The notes beneath the pieces were generated by a model. That model was not told where the DNA came from and searched no databases. It saw only the letters and a program-made list of their open reading frames with translations. A DNA stretch of 21,546 nt from Candidatus Pacearchaeota archaeon (GTDB lineage: Archaea > Nanoarchaeota > Nanoarchaeia > Pacearchaeales > GW2011-AR1): NCBI GenBank assembly GCA_023228245.1, contig JALOBN010000042.1, forward strand, positions 1 to 21,546. Direction: 5' to 3'. Shown one piece after another: positions 4,930 through 21,546 of the stretch (position 1 is its first letter; each line of letters starts with the position of its first letter). A program made the translations under genes and the position numbers.

Positions 4930-4980
4930 TTCTATTATAATAGAAACGAAACCGAAACGGTATTAGCGGATCAACTAAAG
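4930..4980. repeat. Dispersed repeat, copy 2, with 16-bp palindrome
   Basis: 4933-4980 matches 2568-2615 (about 42 of 48 bases). Here it begins inside a perfect palindrome, TTCTATTATAATAGAA, at 4930-4945, which doubles as the TATA region of the minus-strand gene ending at 4583. Confidence 0.55.
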
Positions 4981-7665: not shown

Positions 7666-8514
7666 ATGGATCCATCTTTTATCAGAGCCTTGCAGAAGAT
7701 CCCACCCCAGCTCCGAGAGAGGCCCGGCGCAAGGTTTACGGTTATCATCAATGGGCAAAAGAAGCCAGAGGGCAAGGACTGGTCTGGCATCAATGGGGCA
7801 AACTATGCCATTAACGACGCGCCGTTAGCGGGCTATCTGGCTGAAGGCCATAACTACGGCGTGCTCACCGGCATTGGTGCCCTTGTGGTCCTTGATGTAG
7901 ATGATATTGCCCGGCTTGAGGCTCTTGGAATAATCAAGGAGCTGCCTGAGACCTTCACAGTGAAGACCGGGCGAGGTGGATTGCACTTCTATCTACTCTG
8001 CAAGGAGCTGAAGGATAAGATCATTTTAGAGGATCCTGAGTTGAAGGACATCGAGGGCGATCCTCTCCACCTGGGAGAGCTGCAGGCAATGGGGCAGCAG
8101 GTAGTTGGGCCGAACTCAATTCACCCGAACGGCAACAGATACGAAATCATCAAGGACTTGCCTATTGCCACTATCACAAAAGATGCTCTCTTGCAGATCC
8201 TAAGCCCGCTCAATCAGATCAACACACAAGAAGCAGAGCACAAGCGGCGCAAGTCTGGAAGATCATCAATTGGCGATTCAATCCCCATTGAATCAATCTG
8301 TTGGCCGAAGGACATCAAGGAAAGAGCAGGGGCAGAGGTCCGAGGATCTCACCCCTTACACGGTAGCGAGTCTGGCAAGAACTTCGCTGTGAATACCGCG
8401 AAAAATTGCTGGCATTGCTTCAGGCATAAGAGCGGCGGCGGCCCTCTTGAATGGATCGCAGTTCAAAAAGGTATCATTCGCTGTGAGGATGCTAAGCCGG
8501 GGTGCCTGCGATGA
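7666..8514 (+). CDS. Archaeo-eukaryotic primase-polymerase with zinc finger
   Basis: A prim-pol of the archaeo-eukaryotic primase superfamily (bifunctional DNA primase/polymerase N-terminal type), which synthesises primers at the plasmid origin. The metal-binding acids are in LVVLDVDD (Asp77, Asp79). The nucleotide motif is TGRGGLHFY (His107). The third block is GELQAMGQQVVGPNSIHPNG (about 137-156), typical of this family. A C-terminal CHC2-like zinc module follows (about 237-275: SHPLHGSESGKNF...CWHCFRHKSGGG), with His replacing one Cys. I use ATG 7666; the longer TTG start overlaps the previous gene. The stop overlaps the helicase start as ATGA. At 282 aa it is a compact primase lacking its own helicase, which is supplied by the next gene. 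Confidence 0.9.
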   Translation: MDPSFIRALQKIPPQLRERPGARFTVIINGQKKPEGKDWSGINGANYAINDAPLAGYLAEGHNYGVLTGIGALVVLDVDDIARLEALGIIKELPETFTVKTGRGGLHFYLLCKELKDKIILEDPELKDIEGDPLHLGELQAMGQQVVGPNSIHPNGNRYEIIKDLPIATITKDALLQILSPLNQINTQEAEHKRRKSGRSSIGDSIPIESICWPKDIKERAGAEVRGSHPLHGSESGKNFAVNTAKNCWHCFRHKSGGGPLEWIAVQKGIIRCEDAKPGCLR

Positions 8515-10586
8515 GCAGCAAGTATGATGAGACGCTCAAGGCGGCCAAAGAGATGGGAATAGAGATCCCAACCCAAACCGGCCCGACCCTTGAGGATGCA
8601 CTTCTTTTCATAGCCGATAGATGCGACGGCGCAAGCAGTACCGACGGGCAGGGATTCAATAAGCTGGATACGACCTTCGGAAAGGCCATGGCCGATAAGG
8701 TCCGGGCCGGTAAGAGGCTATCAAGGCAGGAGTACAAAGATGTCTACAAGATGCTGAAGAACTACAACAACAAGCAGCTTATACCGTCTGATATGGATAT
8801 TAGGCTGATTCCAAAAGATCAGCCCGAAATGGAGATCATACCCGAAGAGCCCGAGAGGGAGCAACCTTCCCCGGAGACAGTCGCCGCGGCCCATGAGATC
8901 CTAGAGCACAAGAGCCCGATAGACGCACACTTGGATTATGTCAAAGGGCGGATTTACGGCGGCGAAGCCCCGGCGAGAGTCATCACAATGGCCGGCTATT
9001 CTACATATCTACCCCCGGACGATAGGTTCCACTCTGATGTAGTGGGATCCGCTCAGAGCGGCAAATCCGCAAACACTACCACCGCATTGGAGACATTCCC
9101 AGAAGAGAATGTTATTGTCACCTCGGAGGCATCGCCAAAATCTCTTTACTATCTAGCTCAGAAAACACCGGAAAGGCTGAAGGATGCTATCGTTTACATT
9201 GACGATGCACGCAACGAACATATCCCCTTACTGAAAACCTTCAGGAACGAGGGCAATGTCACTCCCCGAAACCTTACGGTCGTAGATGGTGAGGTTATGG
9301 AGATGGTAGTTCAACACCGACCCGTGGTTATTGCATCCTCCGTAACACCATTAAGAGACATGGAGCAGCAAGCCACTAGCAGAGCCTTCCTTGCGTCAAT
9401 TTCCGACCCGACCCCGGAAGAAGAAAAGAAAGTCAGGGCGGCAATAAGGCAGCATGCCAGGGCGGGCGCTATCATGACACATGGTACGGATGAGAAGCTA
9501 AACATCCTTCGAACAATGGTCCGTATCCTCAGAGACGAGGGCGTGAGGGAGGTACTTGTGCCCTTCGATCCACATGAGCCCAACGGGGCAGACCGACGCG
9601 GTACAGGGCAGTTTATGAGGCTGATTAAGATCTCAGCTTTCATCAACCAATTTCAGAGACCTATCATGGAACTTTCAGATGGTCGAAAGTTCGTATTAGC
9701 CGTCTATGAGGACCTTGCCACCGCGGCGCAAGTTTGGTTTGACTTTGCCGAAGGACAGGAGTTCAAGATATCAGCCAGGGCGGTGGATGTGCTCAAAGCA
9801 ATTCCCGAAGCATGGCCGGGAAAGATGGCGCCCACCATATCCAAAGAGATGGGCAAAGGGCAGCGAACCATTGAGCGCTACCTTGAGGATCTTTATGAAG
9901 CGGGCATAGTGAGCCGCGAAAAGATAACCGCTCCAGGCATGCCATATGGATATTGGGTAGAGCCTGAGATGCGACAAAAAGCCCTGTCGCAAATAACAGA
10001 TACAGTAGACGTTGCGCTGAATAGCGACAGAATCACGACAAAAAATCTTTGTCGCAAATATATGGCCGAAAAAACGTCCTATTCGTTAAAGGACTCAATT
10101 AAAGAGTTCTTTAGTAATAGCGACATAGATATTAAGAGAATGTATAAGGAAATAAAAAATAAGGGCATCCTTGCTGAGGGAGAGGGCCCCGAAAAAATTT
10201 ATCTCTCTCTCTTTTTCAGAAAAACGTGTCGTGATTCGGTAAATGTGGCTAATGATAGCGATGAATCGCGACAAAGCAAAATGTCGCTATTGTCGCAAAT
10301 CCCTGCTGATAGCGATTCTGAAAATGTCGCAAATACCCCAAATTCTGTCGCTATTCCAACGATAGGCCCTCATTCCCGTAAAGAGGATCCCGGCTATCAG
10401 GCGTTCAAGGCTAACGTGCAACGCTGGAGCCGGAACACTTGCCGGTTATGTGGTGCGCACTTTGAGGATCCGCTCACAATCGGCTATCATGGTGGCGGCT
10501 ATATCTGTGAAAGGTGCCGGCGAGACGGTGCACCTGCAGAACCGCCAAAGGCAGATGCACAAGCTCGATTAGGAGAGGTAGCATGA
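8511..10586 (+). CDS. Replicative helicase/initiator ATPase with wHTH and zinc finger
   Basis: The helicase half of the Rep pair, 691 aa. The N-terminus has a DGASSTDGQGFNKLD motif known from plasmid and phage helicase-primase proteins. Walker A is GSAQSGKSA (about 179-187), Walker B is VYIDDA (about 228-233), a sensor-like VVIASS is near 275, and TSRAFLASI (Arg291) is a probable arginine finger, so it is a P-loop (AAA+-like) ring ATPase. A winged helix follows (about 415-480: VDVLKAIPEAW...TISKEMGKGQRTIERYLEDLYEAGIV), then a Ser/Asp/Lys-rich linker carrying DNA iterons (about 490-620), then a CRLC...CERC zinc finger. ATG 8511 overlaps the primase stop. The whole linker is AT-rich, unlike the rest of the gene. 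Confidence 0.9.
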   Translation: MSSKYDETLKAAKEMGIEIPTQTGPTLEDALLFIADRCDGASSTDGQGFNKLDTTFGKAMADKVRAGKRLSRQEYKDVYKMLKNYNNKQLIPSDMDIRLIPKDQPEMEIIPEEPEREQPSPETVAAAHEILEHKSPIDAHLDYVKGRIYGGEAPARVITMAGYSTYLPPDDRFHSDVVGSAQSGKSANTTTALETFPEENVIVTSEASPKSLYYLAQKTPERLKDAIVYIDDARNEHIPLLKTFRNEGNVTPRNLTVVDGEVMEMVVQHRPVVIASSVTPLRDMEQQATSRAFLASISDPTPEEEKKVRAAIRQHARAGAIMTHGTDEKLNILRTMVRILRDEGVREVLVPFDPHEPNGADRRGTGQFMRLIKISAFINQFQRPIMELSDGRKFVLAVYEDLATAAQVWFDFAEGQEFKISARAVDVLKAIPEAWPGKMAPTISKEMGKGQRTIERYLEDLYEAGIVSREKITAPGMPYGYWVEPEMRQKALSQITDTVDVALNSDRITTKNLCRKYMAEKTSYSLKDSIKEFFSNSDIDIKRMYKEIKNKGILAEGEGPEKIYLSLFFRKTCRDSVNVANDSDESRQSKMSLLSQIPADSDSENVANTPNSVAIPTIGPHSRKEDPGYQAFKANVQRWSRNTCRLCGAHFEDPLTIGYHGGGYICERCRRDGAPAEPPKADAQARLGEVA
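9970..10355. repeat. TGTCGC iteron cluster, candidate replication origin in coding DNA
   Basis: TGTCGC occurs ten times (both strands): plus at 9985, 10050, 10282, 10291, 10325, 10346; minus at 9971, 10024, 10120, 10268. Longer forms are TGTCGCAAAT at 9985, 10050, 10291, 10325 and TGTCGCTATT at 10282, 10346 (minus at 10020 and 10116). Fewer than one would be expected by chance in 386 bp. A perfect CGACAAA/TTTGTCG stem sits at 10036-10054. The tract 10080-10165 is strongly AT-rich, like a duplex-unwinding element. The cluster is confined to the linker of the helicase gene. Binding by the wHTH of the same protein is inferred. Confidence 0.75.
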
Positions 10587-20054: not shown

Positions 20055-20435
20055 CTAATAATTGGAATCAGTCCCTTTCGATGGCGGCTTGCCAATTAGA
20101 TACCCAAGAATGGTCCCCAATAACCCAAACATAGGAGCTATTTGCTGATCAGAATATCCCATAACTATTAGAAACAATCCCGCGGGGACTATTACAGAAA
20201 CTGCGAATACACGAGTTGCTTCCTGATCCCAACCAGCGTTTTTTTTAAGTGCGACGATTCCCGTAAAAATAACTAAAATTAATCCAAATGCAAGAATGCC
20301 GAGGCTTAAATATATAACCTGCATAGGAACACCTGTAAAAAGCGTATTGCGCTTGATATCTACATCAAGTTGCCCTAATACAGTGGGAACAACTAGCAAT
20401 AATGAGATCAGAGACGAAATAATCCATTTTTTCAT
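20055..20435 (-). CDS. Small membrane protein, three TM helices
   Basis: 126 aa from ATG 20435, chosen because GGGGAG lies 6-7 nt upstream and the N-terminus is then a normal signal-like helix (MKKWIISSLISLLLVVPTVLG). A longer reading from 20666 runs backward through the CRISPR repeats and is a shadow. After the first helix, TM segments follow at about 37-58 (VIYLSLGILAFGLILVIFTGIV) and 70-92 (RVFAVSVIVPAGLFLIVMGYS), then FGLLGTILGYLIGKPP. Family unknown; the GxxxG-like end resembles holin or small integral membrane proteins. It is divergent from the CRISPR promoter. Confidence 0.7.
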   Translation of the reverse strand: MKKWIISSLISLLLVVPTVLGQLDVDIKRNTLFTGVPMQVIYLSLGILAFGLILVIFTGIVALKKNAGWDQEATRVFAVSVIVPAGLFLIVMGYSDQQIAPMFGLLGTILGYLIGKPPSKGTDSNY

Positions 20436-20497
20436 TGAGGACTCCCCAGAGCACCTTAAAACGCCTACAGACATGTAAGATAAAGCCGTTATGATGC

Positions 20498-20505
20498 TAT
20501 AAATA
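20498..20505 (+). promoter_or_regulatory. TATA box ahead of the mini-CRISPR
   Basis: TATAAATA at 20498-20505 faces the array. Transcription starting about 25 nt downstream would begin near 20527, 13 nt before the first repeat. Confidence 0.55.
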
Positions 20506-20539
20506 CTAAGGGCGCTCAAAAGTTTAATAGAACAACACC

Positions 20540-20649
20540 GTTGCAATCCATCCCGAGATGAGATGCCAATTGCAAGAATTCGTCGGAGCACATTATTTAA
20601 ACGAACGGGAAGGTTGCAATCCATCCCGAGATGAGATGCCAATTGCAAG
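20540..20649 (+). CRISPR. Mini-CRISPR: two 37-bp repeats, one 36-bp spacer
   Basis: The two identical 37-bp repeats are at 20540-20576 and 20613-20649. They begin GTTGCAATCC and end CAATTGCAAG; the middle is CATCCCGAGATGAGATG. The spacer is 20577-20612. The repeat ends ATTGCAAG, very like the ATTGAAAG/C crRNA tag of archaeal repeats, which sets the plus orientation; TTGCAAT...ATTGCAA is an inverted repeat in the repeat ends. No cas gene is in the window, so host Cas proteins would be needed. I saw no match to the spacer elsewhere in the window. A plain direct repeat is the alternative, but the repeat/spacer lengths fit CRISPR. Confidence 0.8.
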
Positions 20650-20693
20650 TGCCTTCCAGCTATCATATTGTGGATGAAAATAAGCCTAAATGG

Positions 20694-20721
20694 GAGAGGC
20701 GATACATCCGCCCCTCTTTTT
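20694..20721 (+). terminator. Terminator-like hairpin after the array
   Basis: AGAGGCG pairs imperfectly with CGCCCCTCT, then TTTTT (20717-20721). Position and orientation suit the end of the array transcript. Bases 20722-20785 show nothing further. Confidence 0.5.
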
Positions 20722-20785
20722 CTCCAGATGCTAGACGGCTCCTAGGTGCTGTTTGGGCAACCCGGTCTAAAGATAGGTTTTACCT

Positions 20786-20852
20786 ACATTAAGCATTAAG
20801 GCTTAATCCTTAATAGATACTCTCTTAAGTCTTAAAGATTAATCCTTAATGC
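20786..20852. repeat. Second copy of the par TTAA comb
   Basis: Same eight TTAA cores in the same 7/15-bp spacing as bases 1-66, with one difference near the start (CATTAAGG instead of CCTTAAGG). The TTAA cores are all kept. Confidence 0.75.
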
Positions 20853-21546
20853 ATGGAAGTAGTAGCAATAGCAAACCAGAAGGGAGGTTGTGGCAAGACC
20901 ACAACAGCAGTTAATCTATCTGCTTGTCTTGCGGCCAAAGGGAAAAAAGTCCTACTAATCGACCTGGACCCCCAAGGATCGGCTACAACCCATCTAGCGA
21001 TCAATAATTTTGAAAACACCATGTACGAGGCCATGCTGGGCGATCTCAGCCTATCGCAGCTCACCACGCTCACAGAGATCAACGGCTTAGATATCATCCC
21101 CGCAGATAAGCGACTCGGGAAAGCAGAGATGGAAATAGCTGGTAAATCCATCGCCAGAGAGAGGATATTAAAACCAAAGATCCAAACTCAAAATGCCTAT
21201 GACTTCATCATCATCGACACGCCGCCCAACCTCGGATTTTTGACTATTAACGCGATGGTGGCCAGCGATACCGTGCTTGTGCCAATCCAAACAGAGTTCT
21301 TTGCGATTCAAGGGTTATCGATGATCCTGGATTTGGCAAAGGCGATCTCTGAGGGTCTAGGCCAGGATCTGAAGCTAAGATATTTGCTGACCATGTACGA
21401 CGCCAGAACCAAAATGGGGAAAGAGGTAATCACGCGAGTTCGTGAGCTTCTCGGAGATGATGTCTTCAAGGTCGTCATTCCCAGGAGCATCAAGCTGGCC
21501 GAAGCTCCGAGCTATGGAAAGCCCATTCATTTGATAGATCCTGAAG
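20853..21546 (+). CDS. parA: ParA-family partition ATPase, second copy, cut by window end
   Basis: Matches the 68-811 gene at about 96% over 694 bases, with only two amino-acid changes seen (Ser to Asn near residue 51, Pro to Leu near residue 73). The Walker motifs are intact. The frame is open to the window edge (231 codons). Synonymous changes dominate, so both versions have been under selection to keep function. Either this is the same locus seen again after circling the plasmid in a mixed population, or a true second partition gene. Confidence 0.9.
   Translation, partial: MEVVAIANQKGGCGKTTTAVNLSACLAAKGKKVLLIDLDPQGSATTHLAINNFENTMYEAMLGDLSLSQLTTLTEINGLDIIPADKRLGKAEMEIAGKSIARERILKPKIQTQNAYDFIIIDTPPNLGFLTINAMVASDTVLVPIQTEFFAIQGLSMILDLAKAISEGLGQDLKLRYLLTMYDARTKMGKEVITRVRELLGDDVFKVVIPRSIKLAEAPSYGKPIHLIDPE

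Follow-up and report, generated by a model that had tools for sequence, protein, structure and literature searches.

Near the right end of the 21,546-nt stretch of DNA analysed here (the window), two direct repeats enclose a short unique sequence, raising the question of whether a mobile element carries a CRISPR array that it uses without cas genes of its own. The initial annotation, made from the letters alone, described the locus as a plasmid-borne mini-CRISPR with its own TATA box and terminator, and suggested that it could be a weapon against other elements. Our best explanation is a cas-less, single-spacer CRISPR mini-array on a mobile element, acting via the Cas proteins of the host, to which we assign a rough probability of 0.55.

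The repeat-spacer-repeat unit

Two identical 37-bp repeats, located at positions 20540–20576 and 20613–20649 of the + strand, flank a 36-bp spacer (20577–20612, +), exactly as first described. Their 73-bp period does not correspond to a whole number of codons, so they do not form a peptide repeat. Ungapped matching revealed no further copy in the window, not even a degraded one; the next best match (21 of 37 positions) lies on the opposite strand and overlaps the array, and the best one outside the array reaches 20 of 37. With two repeats only, the case for an array rests on a single pair. This pair is far beyond chance, the longest exact direct repeat being 17 bp across 100 Markov-1 sequences of the window size and the longest other one within positions 1–20785 being 20 bp. 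The spacer is unique in the window, where its best other match covers 21 of 36 positions. The unit thus has near-identical direct repeats in the range of about 20–50 bp and a unique spacer of length similar to the repeats, as expected of CRISPR arrays, and, with one spacer, falls within the one or two expected of mini-arrays.

As a control, 63 other loci (659,502 bases, ~660 kb; 8 overlapping sub-loci of an original 71 were dropped) were searched for exact pairs of 23–50 bp with a period of 45–100 and a gap of at least 18. Fourteen pairs were obtained, most of them sitting in local tandem or low-complexity fields, and all had inverted ends of no more than 4 bp, compared with 7 bp in the window pair. 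When one mismatch was allowed, 16 other pairs appeared, with inverted ends of at most 6 bp (an AT-rich 29-bp pair in locus L024), followed by 5 bp (L053). The window pair stands out against these control loci, though the control is small.

As another origin of the pair, we considered ordinary tandem duplication, with a unit of 73 bp. Aligned with the 36 bases that precede the first repeat, the spacer agrees at 14 of 36 positions, a level that 5.7% of positions across the window attain at this offset, and the last 17 of these bases agree at 10 (TTTAA..GAAC in both), which 0.3% of positions reach at the 73-bp offset. The latter agreement, noticed after the fact, hints that more than the repeat was duplicated and runs against a plain CRISPR reading; it may be due to chance or represent a promoter-like box in each unit. 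Against a duplication, identity is perfect across the 37 bp and near random beyond, and a duplication in decay would not leave so sharp a boundary; the relatives searched also yielded no copy of the unit. Its occurrence as an ordinary tandem duplication in related elements, named at the outset as an observation that would speak against a mini-array, was not supported, the closest relative being without a copy. We therefore regard this origin as very improbable.

CRISPR-type features of the repeat

On the + strand the repeat starts with GTTGCAAT and ends in ATTGCAAG, the latter being the repeat-end tag noted originally. This tag looks similar to the ATTGAAA(C/G) tags found on archaeal crRNAs. 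The two ends form a perfect 7-bp inverted repeat (TTGCAAT/ATTGCAA); when the letters of the repeat were shuffled 20,000 times, inverted ends of at least 7 bp arose 23 times, and 29 of the 20,500 37-mers of the window have them. Folding was more stable than that of shuffles on both strands (z = -3.2 on +, -3.9 on -). The repeat is thus partly palindromic and hairpin-forming, a property that is common, though not universal, among CRISPR arrays. In the sequences given in the respective reports, the 37-bp CRISPR repeats of Nostoc sp. PCC 7107 (PMC4916379) and Thermanaerosceptrum fracticalcis (PMC7988955) also begin with GTTGCAAT; as both were found via a text search for this string, they demonstrate its occurrence in CRISPR repeats and not its typicality. 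We consider it likely that the locus is of CRISPR identity.

Flanking signals

A TATA-like box is present at 20498–20505, starting 42 bp before the first repeat. It reads TATAAATA on the + strand, being the sole copy of that octamer there, and TATTTATA on the - strand, ~62 bp before the ATG (position 20435) of a divergent gene, and could serve either this gene or the array. Since the box reads both ways and is near this ATG, it cannot be assigned to the array; a TATA box does precede the repeats, as annotated, but it may be the promoter of the divergent gene. That gene (20055–20435, -), the left neighbour of the array, encodes a small membrane-type protein (126 aa) for which no relative was found in IMG/VR, and 104 bp separate its ATG from the first repeat.

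On the right side, a weak hairpin plus T run occupies 20692–20725 (+) and is a possible terminator; the stem contains one mismatch (-11.1 kcal/mol when the hairpin is folded alone). Since a terminator scan called none at this hairpin and the 81-nt region 20650–20730 folds no better than shuffles (z -0.48), the terminator is weak; the hairpin and T run that had been described exist, but their assignment as the array's own terminator found little support. In Rfam, no family reached the gathering score across the window; the models returned around the array (miRNA, leader and snoRNA) were all at chance level. No tRNA was found in the window.

These flanks bear on the possibility that recombination brought a repeat-spacer piece of a host array into the element, or that the locus is what is left of a longer array, and that it is now inert or only a recombination site with host arrays. 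There is no clear leader in the 104 bp between the divergent ATG and the first repeat, the TATA box is ambiguous, and no target was found in phages, plasmids and IMG/VR (see below), all of which agree with such an origin. In arrays undergoing decay the last repeat is usually degenerate, and the two repeats here are identical, with no decay, which counts against a remnant. In the discussion of orphan plasmid arrays in PMC9071438, the ideas put forward are that they are remnants in decay or that they help integration through recombination with host arrays. Capture or decay appears unlikely here.

The par module and the closest relative

The array ends 203 bp before the start of a second copy of parA (20853–21546, +), its right neighbour, which is cut by the window end. 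Directly before this gene are CTTAA/TTAAG boxes (20786–20852, +), which are separate from the array and likely represent a partition operator or centromere. The two window ends (1–761 and 20786–21546) are 761-bp near-duplicates with 96.3% identity, each holding par boxes and parA. They have 28 differences; 22 of the 27 coding ones fall in third codon positions, and there are 2 amino-acid changes in 231. This suggests either two par modules or a circular element whose closure joins versions from two strains. In addition, CATTAAGC-type boxes, mostly spaced every 15 bp, occur at 863–940 within the start of a parB-like gene and echo the boxes before parA.

The end duplicates are relevant to a further possibility, namely that a longer true array was collapsed to one spacer by short-read assembly, which would be compatible with the mini-array reading. 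The window is probably a metagenome contig, and, with ends differing at 28 positions, a strain mixture and a simplification during assembly are possible. Against a collapse, both flanks of the array are unique, and reads are usually longer than a 37-bp repeat. We regard a collapse as improbable.

The closest relative found is an IMG/VR contig of 17,738 bp (L002/L065), whose ParA is 93% identical. Its DNA match to the window begins at the CTTAA boxes, with 80% identity over 1,221 bp for the first copy and 84% over 757 bp for the second. Its parB-like gene is 15 aa longer (127 vs 112 aa), and the field of CATTAAGC-type boxes has five units there. The contig contains parA, the parB-like gene and the CTTAA boxes, with a different gene at the array's place; the site itself is present and the array absent. 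Window positions 20490–20730 gave no match at E 10 in this contig or in two further IMG/VR relatives (possibly fragments), and no array-like pair was detected in the sequence available for these three relatives, of which the 17,738-bp contig may itself be a fragment.

These data allow evaluation of a non-CRISPR reading, in which the two repeats are protein-binding sites of a plasmid, for instance iterons, a partition centromere or a tandem operator ahead of parA. Partition centromeres and operators that lie before parA likewise have direct repeats close to this gene, and the 203-bp distance to parA, the partly palindromic repeat, the TTTAA..GAAC motif ahead of both copies and the presence of the exact repeat core in no species genome searched are all consistent with protein binding. 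However, the par module has its own short boxes, the separate CTTAA motifs between the array and parA, and the 37-bp repeats lie outside the module common to the closest relative. Since that relative has the boxes and parA (84% DNA identity over 757 bp) with another gene at the array's place and no array in its 17,738 bp (possibly a fragment), the repeats are not kept with the par module, which argues against a centromere. The plasmid of Methanosarcina barkeri Wiesmoor likewise has short iterons directly before parA, and an identical pair of 37-bp sites with a 73-bp spacing would be an unusual form of iteron. Protein-binding repeats are accordingly judged improbable. In the M. barkeri plasmid, two repeats ahead of parA were tried as a parallel, and this was dropped because they sit in a field of short iterons.

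Search for cas genes and nature of the element

No Cas effector, Cas6 or Cas1/Cas2 was detected by PADLOC among the 39 scanned of 73 ORFs (at least 60 aa), nor any Cas family by Pfam in 20 proteins; the proposed lack of cas genes was thus borne out for these proteins, and within the 39 PADLOC-scanned ORFs the array has, as mini-arrays do, no cas genes of its own. At E 0.01, PADLOC matched 15 families in the 39 ORFs, each in one protein, including SNase-type and ParA-type models, LmuC, PD-Lambda-5_A and regulator/CARF-type models. Those labelled as CRISPR-related were Csa3, CasR, WYL/Csx1, CARF3 and a winged-helix model, with a best E value of 4e-4. Pfam domains identified in the 20 proteins include ParA, acylphosphatase, Prim-Pol, SNase, HTH_45, HNH, Ada zinc-binding, TPR and others, and a small-terminase-like protein was found among 10 proteins compared with PHROGs. 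Judging from ParA, the primase-polymerase domain and the small-terminase-like gene, the element looks like a plasmid or virus-plasmid.

Search for a matching host array and a target

When the locus was first described, it was proposed that the repeat be compared with chromosomal arrays of the host and the spacer with plasmids and viruses. Neither comparison gave a convincing match. The central 20-mer of the repeat had no exact match in the species genomes (one for each of 84,980 species, contigs of at least 3 kb) or in IMG/VR, where arrays with the exact ends GTTGCAAT...ATTGCAAG and this geometry were also absent. The whole repeat had no BLAST match in plasmids, and in phages gave 24-nt matches only, to two marine virus records (E 0.5). 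In the open literature, 20-/21-mers and 13-/15-mers of the repeat from both strands were not found, and a search for ATTGCAAG as a CRISPR repeat tag in archaea returned nothing judged relevant.

For the spacer, no match was found in plasmids, three phage records were matched at chance level (E 5), and both 18-bp halves were without exact match in IMG/VR. In the 63 control loci, the best agreement was 23 of 36 positions, reached four times, as chance expects. The host possibly lies outside the collection, and these searches would overlook any repeat whose core differs, as well as any protospacer mismatched in both halves; these negatives therefore weaken, and do not refute, the reading of the locus as an inter-element weapon.

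Host of the element

Plasmid pH6Ac of Methanothrix harundinacea matches 3 of 27 window proteins, namely the Prim-Pol (38% identity over 259 aa), SNase (45.5%) and Ada-type (38%) proteins, whereas pGP6 of M. soehngenii matched none of the 27 at E 1e-3 and the M. barkeri plasmid matched ParA alone. Among the PLSDB matches listed for ParA, ordered by identity, the closest are bacterial (45%), with M. barkeri in row 20 (41.9%). Six joined proteins matched 51 PLSDB records, including 1 from Methanothrix, which was the best and matched through SNase, and 46 from Bacillus. The rep-like protein (see below) gave ~21% matches to Methanothermobacter plasmids beside bacterial ones, and a megablast of the whole element found no match in plasmids. 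The archaeal host of the element is probably a methanogen; a Methanothrix-like host is a reasonable guess rather than a result, since the bacterial PLSDB matches of ParA and the joined proteins, together with the ~21% matches of the rep-like protein, count against a clear answer.

Comparison with known mini-arrays and proposed function

Mini-arrays of archaeal viruses, as described in PMC6858448, lack cas genes, contain 1–2 spacers directed at related viruses and resemble host arrays in their repeats and leaders, and in the viruses of Sulfolobales they have been implicated in conflicts between archaeal viruses; cas-less archaeal virus arrays of 1–2 spacers reported in PMC11656645 provide further precedent. 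The locus has the anatomical features of these mini-arrays and is a candidate with well-formed anatomy. The Saccharolobus portogloboviruses SPV1 and SPV2 (PMC6858448) likewise carry 1–2 spacers and no cas genes on an archaeal mobile element. According to the description of their arrays in the same paper, however, repeats and leaders are similar to those of host arrays and several spacers match a rival virus, whereas neither kind of match was found for our locus. The SPV arrays also have a leader with a promoter, which is lacking in phage ones; here there is an ambiguous TATA box 42 bp before the first repeat. The mini-array of Acidianus two-tailed virus, with one spacer between two repeats as in the window, is reported to have a repeat of a known host type, CRISPR-B (PMC6858448), whereas our repeat has no matched type.

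Arrays without cas genes on plasmid-like elements are also known, 207 orphan arrays being reported in a plasmid survey in which ~3% of plasmids carried any CRISPR or cas locus (PMC9071438). As stated there, that survey used complete sequenced plasmids, most of them with an assigned host, whereas the element studied here has no assigned host and its repeat no type.

If the locus acts as a mini-array, it would be transcribed as a short precursor, which a host Cas6-type enzyme would cut inside the repeats to give a crRNA of ~73 nt or less, corresponding to one repeat-spacer unit. The crRNA would be loaded into a host effector complex, which would then attack the carrier of the protospacer. This carrier would most likely be a second mobile element, in competition for the shared host. 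We lean slightly towards an array that is functional in trans with host Cas proteins; that it is directed at a competing element is a tentative suggestion. For the inter-element weapon proposed by the initial annotation, the anatomy is best read as that of a cas-less mini-array on a mobile element, but the matching host array and the target were not found. A still more specific scenario is doubtful: in it, a Methanothrix-like methanogen harbours a plasmid-like element with a one-shot guide cassette, whose repeat core is absent from the species genomes searched, and this element borrows host Cas proteins and excludes a yet-unsequenced competitor. If the array is expressed and aimed at a competing element, the mini-array strategy would extend to a small plasmid-like element of, probably, methanogens.

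Other features of the element

The rep-like protein consists of 694 aa (8502–10586) and is assigned to PF27228; 68 other homologues were found. Short peptide patterns, a limited test, gave 86 matches in the species genomes and no confirmed relative there or in IMG/VR, and this replicon family may be poorly represented in both. An element of 31–69 nt (TTTTCGTTAGA..CTGCAATCTTGGAAGAAGAT..GGAGGGAT) is present in five copies between 12647 and 15268, at or just before the starts of small genes encoding secreted-type proteins, which suggests a shared promoter or leader. A 47-bp direct repeat with 89% identity occurs at 2568–2614 and 4933–4979, 2.4 kb apart, and one of its copies adjoins a small gene with a weak homing-endonuclease match (E 0.005). 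In the closest relative (L002), a 20-bp palindrome-like sequence of the AATAGTTGAC/GTCAACTAT type is present in two copies, at 8809–8828 and 9025–9044, 216 bp apart.
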